Below are positions 4,291-41,688 of a stretch of 42,199 bases of DNA, one piece after another; the stretch's first letter is position 1, and every line of letters starts with the position of its first letter. The stretch covers positions 1 through 42,199 of the forward strand of contig NZ_FOLC01000033.1 in the NCBI RefSeq assembly GCF_900112135.1, given 5' to 3'. This stretch comes from Collimonas sp. OK412. GTDB taxonomy: Bacteria; Pseudomonadota; Gammaproteobacteria; Burkholderiales; Burkholderiaceae_D. A program made the translations under genes and the position numbers. A model generated the notes under the pieces. It had not been told where the DNA came from. It did no database searches and was given only the letters and a program-made list of their open reading frames with translations.

Positions 4291-5550
4291 ATGCAAGGTT
4301 TACATCTGACGGCTGACTGTTACGACTGCAGCTGCTCCCCGGGCTTGTTGCTAGACCCGATCCAGCTGCGCGAGTTCGTCATGGAACAAACCCTGCGTTC
4401 GGGGCTGACCGTGGTCGGAGAAAAATTCCACCCGTTCCAGGCCGCCGACGGCAGCGCCGCCGGCGTTACCTGCGCCCTGCTGCTGGCCGAATCGCACCTG
4501 GCGATCCATACCTGGCCCGAACGCCAGGCGGTGACCCTGGACGTGTATGTCTGCAATTTCACGGAAGACAACAGCGCCAAGGCCAGCGGCTTGCTGGACG
4601 CCCTGGTCGCCGGCTTCGCGCCGGCCCGCTGGCAAACCCACCGCCTGCAACGCGGCAGCGGCGCCGACAACCAGACCCTGGCGCTGGAGCAGCTCACGCC
4701 CCATACCGCCTACGGCACGCAACTGGCGCCGCCGCTGGTGCAACTGCAATCGCCGTTCCAGCGCATAGAAATCGCCGAGTCCGCCGAATTCGGCAAAGTG
4801 ATGCGGCTGGACGGCGCCTACATGACTTCCGAGCGCGACGAATTTTTCTATCACGAATGCCTGGTCCATCCGGCCGCGCTCAGCCACCCGCACCCGCGCC
4901 GCGCCTTGATCGTCGGCGGCGGCGACGGCGGCAGCAGCGAAGAACTGCTCAAGCATCCGTCGATAGAACAGCTGACCTTGTGCGAAATAGATCCTGCGGT
5001 GATCCAGGCGGCACGCCAGCACCTGCAATCGGTCCATCGAGGAGCGCTGGACGATGCGCGGCTGCGCCATGTCGCCCAGGACGGTTTTGCCTACGTACAG
5101 GAAGCGGCGCTCGCCGCTGCTGCCAACCTGCGTTACGACCTGATCCTGCTTGACCTGACCGATCCGCAAGGCGCCGACGGCGGCGCGCTGGCAGCCGATT
5201 GCTACACCCTCGGATTCCTGCATGCCTGCCGCGCCTTGCTCAACCCGGGCGGCGCGCTGGTGATGCACCTGGGCAGCCCGTTCCACCACCCGCAACGATT
5301 CGCGTTGCTGCGCCAGCGTCTCGGCAGCGTCTTCAGCAAGGTCCATCCCTATACCGTGCACGTGCCGCTGTATGGCGCGCTGTGGGGCATGGCGATTGCC
5401 AGCGACAGCCTCGATCCGCTGCAGCTGGACAGCCGGGCGGCGGCAAGCCGCTTGCGGGAAAGAGCACTGGGCGAACTCCAGTACTACAACGAAAATGTCC
5501 ATTCGGCACTATTCGCCTTACCCAATTTCGTGCAGAATCTGGGCGCTTAG
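4291..5550 (+). CDS. Fused S-adenosylmethionine decarboxylase (SpeD) / spermidine synthase (SpeE)
   Basis: A 419-residue fusion joining the two last steps of spermidine synthesis: SAM is decarboxylated and its aminopropyl group is passed to putrescine. The SpeD part (residues 1-~115) has the self-cleavage site Glu67-Ser68 in LAESHLAIHTWPE, with His73 and Cys88 at the +5 and +20 spacing of the pyruvoyl-Ser, His and Cys of prokaryotic class 1B enzymes. The SpeE part follows a short linker, with the GGGDGG nucleotide site, a YHE motif, LLDLTDP holding the catalytic Asp, and the C-terminal YNENVHSALFALPNFVQ. ATG 4291 (MQGLHLTADCYDC) fits SpeD N-termini; an upstream extension to 4126 is unlikely. 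The stop codon TAG lies inside the left arm of a palindromic repeat. Confidence 0.93.
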   Translation: MQGLHLTADCYDCSCSPGLLLDPIQLREFVMEQTLRSGLTVVGEKFHPFQAADGSAAGVTCALLLAESHLAIHTWPERQAVTLDVYVCNFTEDNSAKASGLLDALVAGFAPARWQTHRLQRGSGADNQTLALEQLTPHTAYGTQLAPPLVQLQSPFQRIEIAESAEFGKVMRLDGAYMTSERDEFFYHECLVHPAALSHPHPRRALIVGGGDGGSSEELLKHPSIEQLTLCEIDPAVIQAARQHLQSVHRGALDDARLRHVAQDGFAYVQEAALAAAANLRYDLILLDLTDPQGADGGALAADCYTLGFLHACRALLNPGGALVMHLGSPFHHPQRFALLRQRLGSVFSKVHPYTVHVPLYGALWGMAIASDSLDPLQLDSRAAASRLRERALGELQYYNENVHSALFALPNFVQNLGA

Positions 5551-5708
5551 TGGACTGTAACAGCCGATTCAGGAGTGAAGGGCGCGTACCCGGCACGCAG
5601 GGCAAGGCGCACAGCGGAGCAATAGCGAGCTATTGCGAGCATGTGCAACGCCGCCATGCGGGTCGGGTACGTGACAGGCACTTCTGAATTGGTTGTTACA
5701 GTTCACTA
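5548..5708. repeat. 161-bp MITE-like palindromic repeat
   Basis: Terminal arms at 5548-5577 and 5679-5708 are 30-bp inverted repeats with only 4 mismatches, each a G/A difference when aligned. The inner sequence is also an imperfect palindrome, centred on CAATAGC-GA-GCTATTG (5620-5635), with a further matched block around CGGGTACG. There is no coding frame. The TAG at its left tip is the speDE stop codon. The features fit a non-autonomous miniature inverted-repeat element or an intergenic palindromic repeat. I saw no second copy in this window and no clear target-site duplication. Confidence 0.75.
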
Positions 5709-5739
5709 GCATGTTGCTGCAAATTCATCGTTGCCTGAT

Positions 5740-6168
5740 ATGGAGAGCGTCTTGCCAACCACCGGTCTTTTGAAGCAAATCCCCGAAACTGCCGCGCCAC
5801 CGGCCCGCAAGAGCCGCGCCGTGCCGCTGGTGCTGGCGGCCTCGGCGCTGATCGCAGGCTGCAGTCCACGACAGGCGCGCGACGAATACGCCAGCCAGGA
5901 CGATTGCAAGAAAGACTGGGGACGTCCCGAGCTGTGCCAGCCGGCATCGGGCGGCAGCTCAGGAGGCAGCCACGGCGGCACTTACTACGGCCGCTACTAC
6001 GGTCCCAGTTACGACGAAGGCGAACGCGCAAGCGCGCAACGCAGCGCACGCAGCGGCGGCAACAGTTTTGGCTTGACTGGCAGCGGCGGCGAGAGCAACC
6101 ACTCGGTCGGCCGCAGCGTGTCGCGCGGCGGCTTCGGCGGCGCCCACATCTCCTCCGCCGGCGGCTGA
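5740..6168 (+). CDS. DUF1190 (YgiB/YjfM-type) lipoprotein
   Basis: A 142-residue predicted lipoprotein with a basic N-region, a hydrophobic stretch VPLVLAASALIAGC and a lipobox Cys41. Then comes a Cys-containing acidic segment (DEYASQDDCKKDWG) and a long Gly/Ser/Tyr/Arg-rich region ending in SRGGFGGAHISSAGG. The RGGFG tail and the spaced Cys residues resemble E. coli YgiB and YjfM. The following gene is a YgiC/YjfC homologue, as in ygiBC and yjfLMC. I chose the ATG at 5740; a TTG at 5731 would add three residues, and neither has a good ribosome site. The stop is 2 nt before the next start, so coupling is likely. Function is unknown. Confidence 0.75.
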   Translation: MESVLPTTGLLKQIPETAAPPARKSRAVPLVLAASALIAGCSPRQARDEYASQDDCKKDWGRPELCQPASGGSSGGSHGGTYYGRYYGPSYDEGERASAQRSARSGGNSFGLTGSGGESNHSVGRSVSRGGFGGAHISSAGG

Positions 6169-6170
6169 AC

Positions 6171-7316
6171 ATGATTCGCGAAAGCCTGACGCCGCGCAGC
6201 AACTGGCAAGAACAATTCGAATCGCTCGGCTTTACCTACCACTCGATCGACGACCTGTATTGGGACGAGCGCTACGCCTATCGCTTCACCGCGGCGCAGA
6301 TCGATGCGGTCGAAGACGCCACCAGCGAATTGCACCAGATGGCGCTGCAGGCGGTCGAGCATGTGATCGCGCACGAACGGCTGGAACAGTTCGCCATTCC
6401 GCAGCCGTTCTGGGCGCTGGTCGAAGAAAGCTGGCGCGAAAAAGAATTTTCCCTGTACGGACGCTTCGACTTGTCCTGGGACGGCCGCAGTCCGCCCAAA
6501 ATGCTGGAGTACAACGCCGATACCCCGACCGGGCTGGTGGAATCCAGCGTGGCGCAATGGTATTGGCTGCAAGACGTGTTCCCGCAAGCGGACCAGTTCA
6601 ACTCCCTCCATGAAAAACTGATCGCCCAGTGGCAAACCCTGGCCCGCGACCATCACAGCAAAGGCTTACTGCACTTCGCCTGCATCGGCGGCCATGAGGA
6701 GGACGAAGGCAACCTGGCTTACCTGCGCGACACCGCAATCCAGGCCGGTTTCGCCACCAAACAGCTAGCCATCGAACATATCGGCTGGGACGACCGGCAC
6801 GCGGAATTTGTCGACGACTTCGACCTGAAGATAGACAACCTGTTCAAGCTTTATCCGTGGGAATGGCTGTGCCGCGAAGCGTTTGCCGAACACCTGCTGG
6901 CGCGGCCGCTGCGCCTGATCGAACCGGCCTGGAAGATGGTGCTGTCCAACAAGGCCATCCTGCCGGTGCTGTGGGAACTGTTTCCCGGCCACCCCAACCT
7001 GCTGCCGGCGTTCTTCGACGCCTGGCGCATCAGCGGCGATTTTGTGAAGAAGCCGCTGTATTCGCGCGAGGGCGAAAACATCACGATCTATGCCAGCGGC
7101 GAAGTCCACCACCAGCCGGGCCAATATGGCGCCGAGGGCTATATCTACCAGGCATTTGCCGCGCAGCCGAAATTCGACGACGGCATCACGCCAGCCTACA
7201 CTTCGGTCGGTTCCTGGGTGGTAGGCGACACCCCGGCCGGCATCGGCATCCGCGAAGACGTGTCGCTGATCACCAAGGACACCAGCCGCTTCGTGCCGCA
7301 TTATTTTGTCGACTGA
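6171..7316 (+). CDS. Glutathionylspermidine synthase-like ATP-grasp ligase (YgiC/YjfC type)
   Basis: The 381-residue product matches the length of the YgiC/YjfC group, which keeps the synthetase domain of glutathionylspermidine synthase and lacks the amidase domain. Conserved stretches are SLYGRFDLSWDG (95-106) followed by PPKMLEYNADTPTGLVESS (108-126), and the ATP-grasp end region with VGDTPAGIGIRED. Family knowledge: these are ATP-dependent carboxylate-amine ligases whose substrates are not settled for the stand-alone forms. Here it sits two genes after the spermidine-producing SpeD-SpeE fusion, so a polyamine amine donor is a reasonable inference. It is translationally close to the DUF1190 gene (2-nt gap) and is followed by the DUF350 gene. 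Confidence 0.85.
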   Translation: MIRESLTPRSNWQEQFESLGFTYHSIDDLYWDERYAYRFTAAQIDAVEDATSELHQMALQAVEHVIAHERLEQFAIPQPFWALVEESWREKEFSLYGRFDLSWDGRSPPKMLEYNADTPTGLVESSVAQWYWLQDVFPQADQFNSLHEKLIAQWQTLARDHHSKGLLHFACIGGHEEDEGNLAYLRDTAIQAGFATKQLAIEHIGWDDRHAEFVDDFDLKIDNLFKLYPWEWLCREAFAEHLLARPLRLIEPAWKMVLSNKAILPVLWELFPGHPNLLPAFFDAWRISGDFVKKPLYSREGENITIYASGEVHHQPGQYGAEGYIYQAFAAQPKFDDGITPAYTSVGSWVVGDTPAGIGIREDVSLITKDTSRFVPHYFVD

Positions 7317-7375
7317 CGATCAAACAGCAAATTTGAAGCACGTTCCCTCCCCTTGATACCAGGAGCACTGATCTT

Positions 7376-38052: not shown

Positions 38053-38196
38053 GTGTCTTTTTTGCGGAATTTTGCCGAGTTGCGCAAAAAACCGGGGATA
38101 ACTGACTATAACTGTCCTATCCGACCCTTACTGGGTTTTTCTCCCGCCGACGAAGCATTGATTCGAGATTCCTTGTTGCGCCATCTCGGCGGCTAG
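38053..38196 (+). pseudogene. P2-type tail-completion protein (gpS) remnant 1
   Basis: An open frame ending at TAG 38194-38196 gives PIRPLLGFSPADEALIR followed by DSLLRHLGG, preceded by a degenerate VSFLRNFAELR and GITDY. This is the C-terminal half of phage virion-morphogenesis protein gpS, whose family has a RIARVHQ-G-TD core and a RPLLGF ... LL end. There is no start codon and the N-terminal part is missing. The stop codon shares CTAG with the stop of the opposing Imm51 gene. The fragment assignment rests on pattern recognition plus agreement with remnant 2. Confidence 0.7.
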
Positions 38197-38609
38197 TCCT
38201 GTAACTTGGCACGAAACAGAATATCTCTAAGGATATGGTCATCGTCGAAAGCGATTTTTAACGCATAGCCTAGCACCGTCAAATTCACTTTTGTTCCGTA
38301 CGTTGCAAAATGACCGGCGTCGGAATCGAACCTGAATTCGCCCGCTAATTGATGAAACTGTTCCTTAACGATTGCTTGCGCAACTGAGTTCCAGTCGCGA
38401 CCGTTACCGACCCAGCCTTCCTTCGCTCGTTCCTTAAAAATGGGCGCTTTAGCTTCAAAATCAGGGGCGAACAAGACTAACGCTGTGCAATTGCCTTCAA
38501 TAAGCATGAATGGCCAAAACGTTGTAATGTCAGCGGACTCTTTTTCTTTTTGTTGTAGACAAACTCTTGCTGACTCTTGGGCCAGGTTGGCTATTGCGTC
38601 GATCTTCAT
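38193..38609 (-). CDS. Orphan Imm51-type immunity protein
   Basis: A 138-residue protein of the Imm51 fold: FWPFMLIEGNCTALVLFAPD, a variable linker, GWVGNGRDWNSVAQAIVKEQ and GEFRFDSDAGHFATYG, then a C-terminal helix (ALKIAFDDDHILRD). Imm51 proteins neutralise nuclease toxins delivered by contact-dependent or Rhs/T6SS systems. No toxin gene is next to it, so it is an orphan or a cargo gene. GGAGGTG lies 5 nt before the ATG, and the gene looks intact. It is wedged between two gpS remnants on the opposite strand. Confidence 0.8.
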   Translation of the reverse strand: MKIDAIANLAQESARVCLQQKEKESADITTFWPFMLIEGNCTALVLFAPDFEAKAPIFKERAKEGWVGNGRDWNSVAQAIVKEQFHQLAGEFRFDSDAGHFATYGTKVNLTVLGYALKIAFDDDHILRDILFRAKLQD

Positions 38610-38629
38610 TGAACACCTCCACTGGACGT

Positions 38630-38722
38630 AGCTATCCGGCCCGTCCCTTGCTCTGCTTCACCACCACGGATCAGGCATTGATTCGTGGTGCTTTGTTACG
38701 CCATATTGTCAGTGACTTGTAG
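38630..38722 (+). pseudogene. P2-type gpS remnant 2
   Basis: The frame ends at TAG 38720-38722 with PARPLLCFTTTDQALIR followed by GALLRHIVSDL. It matches remnant 1 mainly by amino acids: many differences between the two are third-position (CGA/CGT, TTA/TTG, CTG/CTC, GAC/GAT), so both descend from genes once under coding constraint on this strand. Only the C-terminal ~30 residues are left. Confidence 0.75.
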
Positions 38723-38766
38723 GTATTGAACTCCCGGGTGTATAGCCGATGTTTACTTCTCCAAGG

Positions 38767-39042
38767 TTAATGAATGGCAACCAGTGAAGCGGCATATTCG
38801 AAAGGCTTTTTGTATTCCGGCAAGCTGTAATGCGCGTCATTGCCCATTTTTGTTAGTCGGCTTTTGAATGCCAAGAGATTCGCCGTCGCATCGGATCGCT
38901 GACGAAGGAGGAAATAACATGCTTCGCTGACGACAGATTTAATGGGTGAGTCAACATTTTGTCCGTACAGGGCGAGGACTGCCAGTGCTTGAATTTTATT
39001 GACGTATTCGCTAATCATTTCTTCTTCGATATGCACGTCCAT
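38767..39042 (-). CDS. Small unrecognised cytosolic protein (cargo gene)
   Basis: A 91-residue, mostly helical, acidic/neutral protein with no signal peptide. I chose the ATG at 39042 (MDVHIEEEMISEYVN) because GGGAG lies 6 nt before it; an upstream ATG at 39081 would add 13 hydrophobic residues. I do not recognise a family. The placement next to a gpS remnant, opposite in strand, mirrors the Imm51 gene and suggests a second cargo (possibly immunity) gene; that is inference. Confidence 0.6.
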   Translation of the reverse strand: MDVHIEEEMISEYVNKIQALAVLALYGQNVDSPIKSVVSEACYFLLRQRSDATANLLAFKSRLTKMGNDAHYSLPEYKKPFEYAASLVAIH

Positions 39043-39605
39043 AGCGAACTCCCAAAACCGAAACAATAGATAAAATGACATTAATTCATCTTAGTAATCG
39101 GAATGAAATTTGTCCATGGTTCTGATCGGCTTTAGTAAAATTTATAAATACCGTACGGTAATGCGGGTCAACTCTCTAGCGGCATCGCGTGACCCCGCAC
39201 GCGCGCAAAATGCGTCGCCGAAATTGGCAATTCAAAAAAACACATTATTGTGGACGTCATATCCAGACATTTTTAGAAGCGCTGCGTCACCGCGTCCGCC
39301 TCCCAGCTAGTAGTCACCAGTTCGCGGCTGACGTATTGGCTGCCGTCGTTACCAGTTGCGTATCGCCGACGGCTCGCCAACTCACGTTGGGCAGCCATCC
39401 TCCCAGCTTATTCGAAGCACATCTTGTTTTTAATCACCTTGCATTTTCTGACTATTGATGCATTGTTGTTTTGCGTAAATAGTCGCGTGGGAACTGCGCA
39501 ACAGCATAGCTAAATGATTTCGATTGTTATCTTTTTTACTAGCTTTTTTTGTCATAGAAGATTTAATATCAAATCGTCTCCATACAAAAAAAAAGAGGTG
39601 ACGAC
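39043..39605. other. Non-coding stretch with a duplicated gene fragment
   Basis: About 560 bp with no full gene. It contains the minus-strand fragment 39273-39398 and, at the right end, an AT-rich run with AGAGGTGA that serves the next gene. Nothing else is supported. Confidence 0.5.
39273..39398 (-). pseudogene. C-terminal fragment A of an unrecognised protein
   Basis: A 41-codon frame (ATG 39396-39398, stop TAA 39273-39275) ending in SRELVTTSWEADAVTQRF. The end matches the end of fragment B (40954-41130), so this is a degraded copy of the same C-terminus. A GGGAGG directly abuts the ATG, too close for a normal ribosome site. The family is not recognised. Confidence 0.5.
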
Positions 39606-39890
39606 ATGGGATGGTTTAACAAATTGGTGACCAAATATATTCTGACGCCGGAAAAAATGGCGGAAAATGAATTACGCGATACACGCTTGGGGTTGTATCA
39701 ATCAGAAAGGCAGTTGCTGGAAGCGGAAATGCGAGTCGATTATTATCGCAATGTCCTAAGCTTCCTCGAAGCGATTACCGTCGACGGCGTAGAAAGTGTC
39801 GCCGAATCGCAGAGACCCAAACTGTCCTTACAACCGCAAGGACCGCAGCGGCATACACCAGATTTGGGTTCTTATCGCGGCACAGCCTGA
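39606..39890 (+). CDS. Small coiled-coil protein, phage/plasmid-like
   Basis: A 94-residue protein with a predicted coiled coil in its first two thirds (KMAENELRDTRLGLYQSERQ, LLEAEMRVDYYRNVLSFLEAI). Small proteins of this kind, a short hydrophobic start followed by an A/E/Q-rich helix ending in a YHxxR-like segment, are common in phages and plasmids, but I cannot name the family. AGAGGTGA precedes the ATG. The last ~30 residues look uneven and could reflect a frameshift into neighbouring sequence. Confidence 0.55.
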   Translation: MGWFNKLVTKYILTPEKMAENELRDTRLGLYQSERQLLEAEMRVDYYRNVLSFLEAITVDGVESVAESQRPKLSLQPQGPQRHTPDLGSYRGTA

Positions 39891-40033
39891 GCTCCGGCTC
39901 GCACGGGTTTCATGCGGCGCAAACGATCACGCATGGATCGCTGTTCATGTTTATTCGTTTTCGCCGCAACTCGTGTCGCAACTCCCGCGACGGCTGCAAT
40001 AAAGAACTGATTACGCATATCGAGCAAGCTTGA

Positions 40034-40315
40034 TTGCGGTCGGCCGCTGCCACCCGTTGCGAAACGGTAGCTCGCGTCGTCACGCCTAGGCCCGCACGCC
40101 TGCGGCGCGTTAGCATTCCCAAATCAGAAAGCGGCGATGCTCGGAAAAATCGCCTGCAAAAAAATCTCAAAATCGAGCAGGATGAAAACCAGCTGTCGGT
40201 CGGATTCTTTGGCCGCATAGCGCGCATCGCCCGCGTGCATCAGGAGAGATTGACGGATACGCAGGAGCGACAAATATCAATCAAGCACGATGTGATTGGC
40301 TGGAAGAGCAATTGA
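40034..40315 (+). pseudogene. P2-type gpS remnant 3
   Basis: The frame contains RKNRLQKN and then LSVGFFGRIARIARVHQ (recognisable from 40139), the middle core of gpS-type virion-morphogenesis proteins. It breaks off soon after LTDTQERQ and ends DVIGWKSN, without the RPLLGF tail. So it carries the part missing from remnant 2 and most of remnant 1. A frame upstream to 40034 is open, but its sequence is not gpS-like. Confidence 0.7.
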
Positions 40316-40531: not shown

Positions 40532-40897
40532 ATGTCTCGATTCATTCCTGCCGGAAGTTATCAAAAAACAGCCTCACATATCAATTCGAACCTTTATGGC
40601 AAAGCGCGGCGTCGCGATCAATCGTGGATTGCATCTGGATTCAATATCTCCAGCCTATCTGGCGGCCTTGTAAATTATGATGGCGCACTGCAATCGGAAA
40701 ACGATTCTCTCCCCGTCACCGGCTTCATTCCTAACGGCAGCTACCAACAGACCACGGAAAATATCGCCGTCGCGTTAACGGCATATTGCCAAAAAAGAGA
40801 CGGCAGCTGGCAATGGGCTTCGCTGGACATTACCAGTTACAAGCAGGGCGACGGCGATATTGCGAATATCGATGGCGAGCTGAAGATTCAAAAATAA
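40532..40897 (+). CDS. Cyanovirin-N homology (CVNH) lectin-like protein, two repeats
   Basis: A 121-residue protein without a signal peptide. It has two tandem CVNH repeats: SRFIPAGSYQKTASHIN ... NYDGAL and TGFIPNGSYQQTTENIAV ... GDIANIDGELKIQK. The second repeat ends with the typical DIANIDG-L-K. CVNH proteins bind high-mannose glycans in cyanobacteria, fungi and ferns; the family is sporadic in other bacteria. The first repeat lacks the usual cysteines and the second keeps only one, so disulphide pairs of cyanovirin-N are absent. AGGAG precedes the ATG. Role here (glycan binding, fungal contact) is speculative. Confidence 0.8.
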   Translation: MSRFIPAGSYQKTASHINSNLYGKARRRDQSWIASGFNISSLSGGLVNYDGALQSENDSLPVTGFIPNGSYQQTTENIAVALTAYCQKRDGSWQWASLDITSYKQGDGDIANIDGELKIQK

Positions 40898-40953: not shown

Positions 40954-41130
40954 TCAGAAAAGTTTCGTCACCACATCTGCATCCTGATAGGTAATAACCA
41001 GTTCTTTGTTAGTCCTTGGTTGGCCATGCGTACTGCCAATGCTGTATTTGATATCCAGGCTAATCATCGTAAACCCATCAAACACGCGGCGAATATCGGG
41101 ATGGCCGTTAATGCTGTGCGACCCGTCCCG
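40954..41130 (-). pseudogene. C-terminal fragment B of an unrecognised protein
   Basis: A 58-codon frame opening directly after a TGA (41131-41133) and ending NKELVITYQDADVVTKLF before TGA (40954-40956). The end matches fragment A. The frame has no start codon at its beginning and overlaps the next feature in another frame, so a frameshift may have split one gene of about 130 codons. Convergent with the CVNH gene. Confidence 0.55.
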
Positions 41131-41350
41131 TCACATTCTCCGGTAGCATCGCGCAAATTTCGCCAACACACATTACTGTCTCAATAGCGAACAAAAATGC
41201 CATCGCCACGGCCGGATTTTTTGTTTGAACCTGCGCACCATCAAAGCCCAGCGCAAAGGCAATTCGATCACTCTCACCAGGTGAAATCAAACGATCGCGG
41301 GCGCCAGGACTGATAAGTCTACGAACATTCGTCGAGGGACTGGTTTCCAT
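41108..41350 (-). CDS. Unrecognised 80-residue frame, perhaps the 5' part of a split gene
   Basis: ATG 41350, no clear ribosome site. The product repeats RLISPG twice and contains a hydrophobic segment (AVAMAFLFAIETVMCVGEI). It runs into fragment B in a different frame near 41130; together they could be one frameshifted gene. No family recognised; it may be non-coding. Confidence 0.3.
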   Translation of the reverse strand: METSPSTNVRRLISPGARDRLISPGESDRIAFALGFDGAQVQTKNPAVAMAFLFAIETVMCVGEICAMLPENVTGRVAQH

Positions 41351-41613
41351 CCATTGTCACGCTTTGCAGCCCAAGCTGCGGCCAGGGCTTTAGTCGCGAT
41401 GTATCTGAATCGCGTTGCCCCTGGACGTAGGGCTGAAAGCGGCAAACATTCCCATTTTTCTGAATGATGCCATTTCGCAATTTGTTCGTAAATGGTAACA
41501 GCGAACGCAGGAAATTACGGGTTTCCGTGGGAATCGCGAAAGGGAGGAAATCGTCAACAAGCCTTTAAATACGCGGCTTACGGCCAATTACAGGGAGTTG
41601 AAGAAAAGGGACT

Positions 41614-41688
41614 TGGTCCCGCCAACAGGAATCGGACCTGTATCTAGCGCTTAGGAGGCACTCGTTCTATCCATTGAACTATGGCGAG
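41614..41688 (-). tRNA. tRNA-Arg (anticodon CCT)
   Basis: On the minus strand a full cloverleaf fits: acceptor CTCGCCA/TGGCGGG, anticodon arm AGTGC-CTCCTAA-GCGCT with anticodon CCT, T-arm ACAGG-TCCGATT-CCTGT, discriminator A and encoded CCA (41614-41616). The D-arm and variable region resemble E. coli tRNA-Arg(CCT). The tRNA reads leftward, so its 3' end faces the accessory region, the usual layout for integration into a tRNA gene. Confidence 0.92.

Follow-up and report, generated by a model that had tools for sequence, protein, structure and literature searches.

The last few kilobases of a 42,199-nucleotide (nt) stretch of Collimonas sp. OK412 DNA (contig NZ_FOLC01000033.1, hereafter the window) carry three fragments of gene S, which encodes gpS, the tail-completion protein of P2-like phages, interspersed with opposing and co-directional genes of other kinds. 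We consider it probable that this region is the leftover S-V interval of a P2-like prophage at a tRNA-Arg(CCT) gene, in which cargo genes became stacked together with S 3′ ends. As stated in the initial annotation of the window, the S-V interval of P2-like phages is a known moron site; orf30 is among the genes located there (PMC6823313, PMC3091744). The serial capture of cargo genes that the annotation proposed is supported by prophages in which displaced S 3′ ends lie between intact S and V, namely at the loci that we number L034, L037, L038 and L060.

All three fragments match Pfam family PF05069 (Phage_tail_S) and are also found by tblastn when the intact gpS encoded on contig C34 of this genome is searched against a database of 28 loci; the first two are S 3′ ends as annotated, but the third is internal. 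The piece at 38053-38196 covers PF05069 profile positions 115-147 (E=6.4e-5; tblastn E=3e-8), that at 38630-38722 positions 123-147 (E=0.0079; tblastn E=6e-7) and that at 40034-40315 positions 73-108 (E=0.019; tblastn E=5e-13). Every piece scores under the PF05069 gathering score of 24.3 bits; they are gpS fragments and not members of that family. With an S C-terminus profile built without the window, pieces 1 and 2 both reach 45 bits, the best reversed sequence giving 8.3. Displaced S end no. 1 occupies 38102-38196 of the plus strand (S codons ~132-160, perhaps from ~128); the first piece is gpS-like as claimed, but its S sequence starts only at ~38102 (perhaps ~38093; a weakly scored left-end estimate, log-likelihood ratio (LLR) 6.3) and not at 38053. 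Displaced end no. 2 lies at 38631-38722 (plus strand, S codons ~135-160), and internal piece no. 3, delimited by DNA homology, at 40125-40259 (plus strand, S codons ~72-125). Over 25 codons, ends 1 and 2 show 8 nucleotide differences in synonymous codons and 17 in changed codons, which contradicts the statement that their differences are mostly silent; the accompanying conclusion that they are not recent copies still fits.

Directly abutting S end no. 1 is an opposing Imm51-family gene (38193-38609, minus strand; PF15595, E=4.1e-14), as first annotated, and the CTAG palindrome at 38193-38196 contains the overlapping stop codons of the two. S end no. 2 precedes the second opposing gene, u104 (38767-39081, minus strand), which has no Pfam match at E⩽1; it encodes 104 amino acids (aa), however, and the 91 originally given are obtained only from an inner ATG. 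No opposing gene was recognised after piece 3. This piece belongs to a block shared with the long S copy of L038 (window 39283-40259 equals L038 8169-9146 at 86% DNA identity), but is truncated on its 3′ side. The cargo gene u94 (39606-39890, plus strand) has counterparts of 83% identity (DNA 85-86%) between S and V of both L037 and L038, where the Imm51 homologues are 57% and 63% identical. For u104, close relatives are present in L052 (97%), L053 (95%) and L042 (88%), and distant ones (34-35%) directly after S in L035 and within the S-V interval of L071. Intact prophages with these genes away from gpS were sought and the opposite was found, since prophages with both S and V carry Imm51 and u94 (L037, L038) or the distant u104 homologue (L035) between the two. 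In those prophages they are extra genes between S and V of a P2-like late region, which is what we take as an S-V moron; the window, from which V is absent, falls outside that definition. The whole block Imm51-S3′-u104 recurs in L052 and L053, from two other genomes, with 92-97% protein identity; the window and L052 are 93% identical across 1.1 kb, and end no. 2 and its counterparts in L052 and L053 differ by 4-7 nt.

Piece 1 used as a query matched 12 of 15 Collimonas genomes at E⩽0.01 (33 matches, many in short frames), and 7-16 kb retrieved around these matches gave 26 loci. Intact S followed by V is present in eight (L034, L035, L037, L038, L039, L043, L045 and L047). A ninth is the P2-like prophage on contig C34, the single PF05069 match of the window genome at E⩽0.001, with a PA-IL-like gene (Pfam E=5e-52) and two DNA methyltransferase genes between S and V. 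Extra S 3′ ends stand in the interval in three of the nine (L034, L037 and L038). The order in L034 is S, a CPBP-type protease, a D12 methyltransferase remnant, an S 3′ end, methyltransferase MT1 and V. In L037, S is followed by an insertion-sequence fragment with an FN3 protein, an S 3′ end, a 101-aa gene, a second S 3′ end, Imm51, a D12 remnant, u94 and V, while L038 reads S, 101-aa gene, S 3′ end, Imm51, u94, long S copy, a 462-aa gene with a PI-PLC-X match, D12 methyltransferase and V. All cargo in these three loci faces S, u94 excepted, and the opposing gene that comes immediately after a displaced S 3′ end is Imm51 in both L037 and L038, and MT1 in L034. An array without intact S is found in L050, where the 101-aa gene occurs at least twice; the copies at 5238-5601 and 6997-7355 are 67% and 58% identical to the L038 protein, and 6641-6841 is a possible third, weak piece.

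In a survey of 150 fetched loci, 131 of them extending at least 3 kb downstream, the S C-terminus of each locus was used as a query against its own 6 kb flanks. A downstream copy was detected at E<1e-3 in seven loci, representing six distinct prophages; four further weak matches (E 0.004-0.032) were left uncounted, and the 6 kb upstream of S gave no match below E=0.009. The phage collection, searched with a 63-aa S query at E⩽0.01, has a single S place in each of 248 records and so no second copy, although pieces of 25 residues may lie below the sensitivity of that search; neither window 38053-39312 nor the Imm51 protein has a match there.

Comparison between loci supports the growth of these arrays by repeated displacement. 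Relatives with less cargo are available as S-FN3-V (L066), S-D12-V (L043), S-u104-like-D12-V (L035), S-MT1-V (L158, from Duganella) and S-101aa (L074, on a contig without V), and a before/after pair is provided by L038 (S-101aa-S3′-Imm51-u94) and L037 (S-FN3-S3′-101aa-S3′-Imm51-u94). In L060, from the viral collection, intact S, FN3 and a displaced S end are followed by an MT1-MT2-V part 88% identical to the C34 prophage, which is without FN3. Sliding windows over lysB-R-S of L060 are nearest to L002 or L061 in 25 of 31 cases; from about S codon 94 onward, the final three have L035, L035 and L037 as nearest relatives, and the identity to L002 falls to 76-78%. For L037 the nearest relatives are L035, L043, L034 or, in part of R, L066, and for its last two windows L060 and L066. 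FN3 is carried by L060, L037 and L066, so an S end seems to move together with its cargo, for which the sign is clear in L060 but weak in L037; the switch of identity points to a homologous junction within S. Older 3′ ends that match other lineages stand downstream in two cases: the displaced copy of L237 is 84% identical to the L101-type S, its own S ranking 35th of 123 (70%), and the long copy of L038 is nearest to L043 (84%), L038 ending in D12-V as L043 does. With the S ends of L060 and L037 grouping by FN3 cargo and the L237 copy by another lineage, new cargo seems to bring its own S 3′ end; the initial annotation had allowed either bringing or regenerating, and the before/after pairs and recombinant S ends favour the former.

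On the cargo side, the junction partners differ, being the 3′ part of a D12 gene in L034 (where the methyltransferase remnant is joined to S codon ~124), the V-upstream spacer in L037 and FN3-upstream sequence in L060. Among copies of the Collimonas type, 17 of 29 start at S codons ~119-137, a range limited on its right side by the ~22 residues needed for left-end detection; after junctions were merged by hand, 10 of 21 lie within this cluster (chance expectation 19/137 codons; p=2e-4). A palindrome, TTAGCGCTAA, near the end of the FN3-upstream sequence shared by L060 and L037 was tried as a recombination site and rejected; it is absent as a marker of the other junctions searched (L002, L034-L085 and the window).

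One homologous and one illegitimate junction would fit these data best. The S/V boundary would serve as the cargo site, and incoming cargo would be linked to the S 3′ end of the phage it comes from. One junction would form by homology inside S, and the other, which looks illegitimate, would connect the resident S with sequence from upstream of the new cargo. The resident S would thereby receive a new 3′ end and new cargo, its old 3′ end being shifted downstream to a place before the old cargo, and repeated rounds would yield the array S-cargo-S3′-cargo-S3′-cargo-V. In the window, the phage genes would subsequently have decayed, the cargo frames staying open.

Several observations weigh against this scheme. 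The lead of the FN3 carriers in the sliding window at 6136-6225 of L037 is small (L060 90% and L066 89% versus L035 87%), and L037 is well separated only in the last window, past the stop codon (82 and 80 versus 59-70%). L066 is nearest to L037 in part of R too, and L060 is mosaic in other parts of S as well. The displaced copy of L236 is nearest to its own S (88%), so an origin within the genome or from a close relative fits equally there. Ten of the clustered left ends are weakly scored (LLR 4-13). Finally, no array was caught forming among the loci compared, nor did any phage turn up in which Imm51 comes directly after S.

The S end that is displaced in these arrays has a second property. 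In the Collimonas clade, which comprises intact S genes sharing 78% identity or more with nine S proteins that served as reference, the strand opposite to codons 128-139 reads GGGCCGG, 11 nt and CCGGCCC, or nearly so, and then a T-run; we infer that this antisense hairpin and T-tract would act as an intrinsic terminator for the facing cargo. A consensus terminator scan missed the element because it allowed loops of only 3-8 nt, and a purpose-made score for hairpin plus T-tract was used. Of 30 distinct S genes of this clade, 28 score 13 or more, and the mean of the 30 is 17.9 versus 8.1 under synonymous resampling. For 22 of them at most 5 of 100 synonymous recodings are equally good. Among all 12-codon stretches compared across 25 S genes, codons 128-139 have the lowest synonymous diversity (0.176 versus 0.377 for codons 9-127 and 0.526 for codons 140-158), and seven random codons are equally low in 5 of 20,000 draws. 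The stem is paired in 94.8% of 252 cells (36 rows), slid partners reaching at most 66%; the only two two-sided changes of a stem pair are in displaced copies (L034 and L059). The next gene opposes S in 21 clade members versus 8 in which it does not, compared with 7 versus 43 in the group of 60-77% identity (Fisher p=3e-7); orientation is approximate here, read from the longest open frame whose start lies no more than about 700 nt from the S stop.

Other results argue against a terminator role. Eight of the 30 clade genes are unexceptional under recoding, including L037 (21/100) and L002 (11/100), and the covariation is modest, since 20 of 500 shuffles reach two two-sided cells over all 36 rows. 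When 28 displaced or remnant copies were scored, 9 reached 13 or more (in L034, L038 (both), L040, L042, L051, L054, L057 and L059), 6 fell at 8-12 and 13 at zero, among them both window copies. In window copy 1 a leftover T6 and a weak stem can be drawn. The element is present in 19 of 21 clade members with opposing cargo and equally in 8 of 8 with co-directional cargo; the corresponding figures are 0/7 and 8/43 in the 60-77% group and 2/20 and 1/38 below 60%. The hairpin thus does not follow orientation within groups, and its link with opposing cargo amounts to one contrast between clades.

The hairpin might accordingly be a mere by-product of the KKGPxYxYPAR protein sequence and codon use, an explanation that we doubt on balance but regard as a serious contender. 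Lysine codons give the A-run and Gly-Pro and Pro-Ala-Arg favour GC arms, recoded genes keep a mean score of 8.1, and, as just described, orientation is not tracked inside clades. What speaks against a by-product is that the minimum of synonymous diversity falls exactly on the hairpin and that few recodings match most of the genes. If the element does work as a terminator, it would end the transcripts of cargo, which in Collimonas-type phages mostly faces S, within S itself, and the unit of S 3′ end and opposing gene would therefore carry its own terminator. Displaced ends mostly begin at or near the hairpin. We propose tentatively, with slightly less than even confidence, that the S end of this clade is double-coded, and that S 3′ end and opposing gene form a self-terminated cartridge which renews S on entry. 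A moron has its own promoter and terminator; promoter-like sites showed no excess over shuffles here (1 versus 2.1, and 5 versus 4.9).

Beyond Collimonas, displaced S ends occur as well. The C-terminal alignment is matched by 37 of 195 genomes of the family, Collimonas included. L237 (G163) has an intact S, a copy and V; L236 (G107) has an intact S and a copy, with no V recognised in the 11.5 kb covered; L238 (G061) has S in two frames, an almost complete second S together with the end of R, and a partial V; L239 (G028) has two copies and no intact S; and the viral contigs L110 and L127 have an S copy along with intact S and V. The cargo is mostly co-directional, and the left ends fall at R codon 123 and S codons ~40, 78, 103, 110, 115 and 115, none of them within 119-137. 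In L110 the displaced S copy is split near the position of the hairpin, between codons ~131 and 135, by an insertion sequence with an rve domain (5436-6850).

The near-complete second S of L238 with its end of R is what would be expected if the S fragments were left by chance deletion in decayed tandem or overlapping P2-like prophages at one site, with no stacking at all. Such an origin would also suit the window, which is a decayed prophage region at a tRNA, and the eleven Collimonas-type copies that start at scattered S codons 47-115. It is nevertheless improbable, because the copies lie between intact S and V, with the late genes adjoining, in L034, L037, L038, L060 and L237, because a second R piece was found in only one of the ten stacked loci searched (L238), and because the same cargo stands behind copies in different genomes. 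Equally hard to credit is the idea that some displaced ends function as small genes in their own right, a truncated gpS that competes in tail assembly being one example. The displaced C-terminal halves at L236:4802-5041 (79 aa) and L237:8162-8407 (81 aa) are open frames with the same internal Met, and cover residues 1-77 of the 78 of PHROG 8396, a viral protein family of unknown function (E=1e-26 and 2e-26); these end-to-end matches mean that free-standing gpS C-terminal halves recur and form a viral family, which all three window pieces match partially. Many copies, on the other hand, are frameshifted or contain stops (L037, L038, L041 and L058), and those of the Collimonas cluster start too late to encode the PHROG 8396 frame. 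The site-specific insertion of cassettes at S codon ~125, integron-like or integrase-driven, would explain the cluster of left ends but is very improbable, since the junctions spread across ~50 nt with no shared core by eye, the partner sequences differ, the ends outside Collimonas lie elsewhere, and in place of the fixed site at each junction of an integron cassette array the S-side ends range over codons ~47-137.

The scheme of stacking by displacement has precedents in toxin loci. Displacement of Rhs C-termini was reportedly described by Jackson in 2009 and by Poole in 2011, both named in PMC5361080. Rhs genes, like the S arrays, keep their 5′ part constant and are accompanied by displaced 3′ parts in strings; the variable C-terminus there is a toxin, whereas the S 3′ end is a conserved structural end. 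The effector-immunity modules of the Vibrio cholerae type VI secretion system (T6SS) likewise form sequential displacement arrays, with older 3′ parts shifted downstream into the array and, in the authors' proposed model, homology on one side and illegitimate joining on the other (PMC5361080). In the T6SS the effector is replaced and the immunity gene kept; in the S arrays the 3′ end of a tail gene is renewed and the cargo consists of assorted phage-borne genes. Because the displacement logic is thus published for T6SS and Rhs loci, this way of stacking is not wholly undescribed, a possibility that the initial annotation had raised, although no report on phage morons was found. The morons of P2-like phages occupy the same interval as here, and in KL3 a methylase gene convergent with S overlaps the S 3′ end by 21 bases (PMC3091744); repeated S ends or stacking are not described in the relevant parts of the two papers (PMC6823313, PMC3091744). 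The antiviral hotspots of P2-like phages are similarly variable accessory loci at fixed places, but lie elsewhere, beside cos between the replication and portal genes and at the fun locus; recombination exchange is suggested for them, and the corresponding sections make no mention of displaced gene ends (PMC9122126, PMC9519451). A search of the open-access literature brought up no account of gpS ends being displaced, of S containing an antisense terminator or of displacement arrays of phage morons.

The surroundings of the S pieces in the window fit a decayed prophage. The tRNA-Arg(CCT) gene that had been noted beside the remnants was located by ARAGORN at 41614-41688 (minus strand) and is presumably the phage attachment site. 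Next to it, at 41117-41462 (minus strand), lies a decayed phage integrase, detected by tblastn with the integrase of L233, itself a tRNA-Arg neighbour (74% over 80 aa, E=3.5e-32, plus two more pieces; the query matches Pfam Phage_integrase at E=3.4e-17). Integrase genes recognised by Pfam adjoin tRNA-Arg(CCT) in L232 and L233, two loci that share contigs with the L038 and L037 prophages and lie 24-28 kb away from the S genes of these. For V the window has only a chance-level match far off (20127, E=0.038), and none of the C34 prophage frames of at least 90 aa matches the window at E⩽1e-4. With integrase pieces by the tRNA and with V and the C34 frames absent, the window has kept the interval cargo and lost the rest of the phage, which supports the proposed decay. 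The reading frames of Imm51, u104, u94 and a possible CVNH-like gene (40532-40897, plus strand; Pfam CVNH E=0.0026, under the gathering score) are still open. Two 3′ remnants of D12-class DNA methyltransferases are present on the minus strand, at 39274-39333 (78% to L038 11583-11642; its L035 homologue is Pfam MethyltransfD12) and at 40956-41116 (78% to L038 11584-11744; protein 72%). L048 (G005) resembles the window in having an S end, an Imm51 gene, the tRNA and a portion of the aldolase-like neighbour. The contig end, 41852-42199, is multi-copy, seven further places in the same genome, two of them contig starts, matching 334-348 bases of it at 99-100%; the assembly was thus probably broken by an insertion sequence or a repeat of similar kind.

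Additional cargo was noted in passing. Toxin-antitoxin genes behind S or S ends include HicA/HicB in L044 (6688-7274) and a Gp49-like protein with an HI1420-type antidote in L040 (6403-6996), the same antidote being present in L236 (4498-4791). L051 (6562-7273) has a bare S 3′ end with a PA-IL-like gene (97% to that of the C34 prophage), and around it a short MT1 remnant was the only other marker gene found. A weak extra S-end match exists in the window genome (G000:C48:9525-9605, E=0.0029). PADLOC, run on ten cargo proteins, gave matches only for the three methyltransferases among them.

If this reading is correct, a phage could keep stacking cargo at an operon border, each event leaving one S-end scar that records order and donor. 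The arrays would then be a readable record of cargo gain by temperate phages, from which the order of capture and the donor lineage would be partly recoverable, and new cargo families could be sought abutting stray gpS 3′ ends, both in prophages and in bare chromosomes. The displacement-array principle of toxin loci would then apply to a structural phage gene too, and the position of opposing cargo directly behind the tail operon without antisense read-through would be accounted for by a double-coded terminator.

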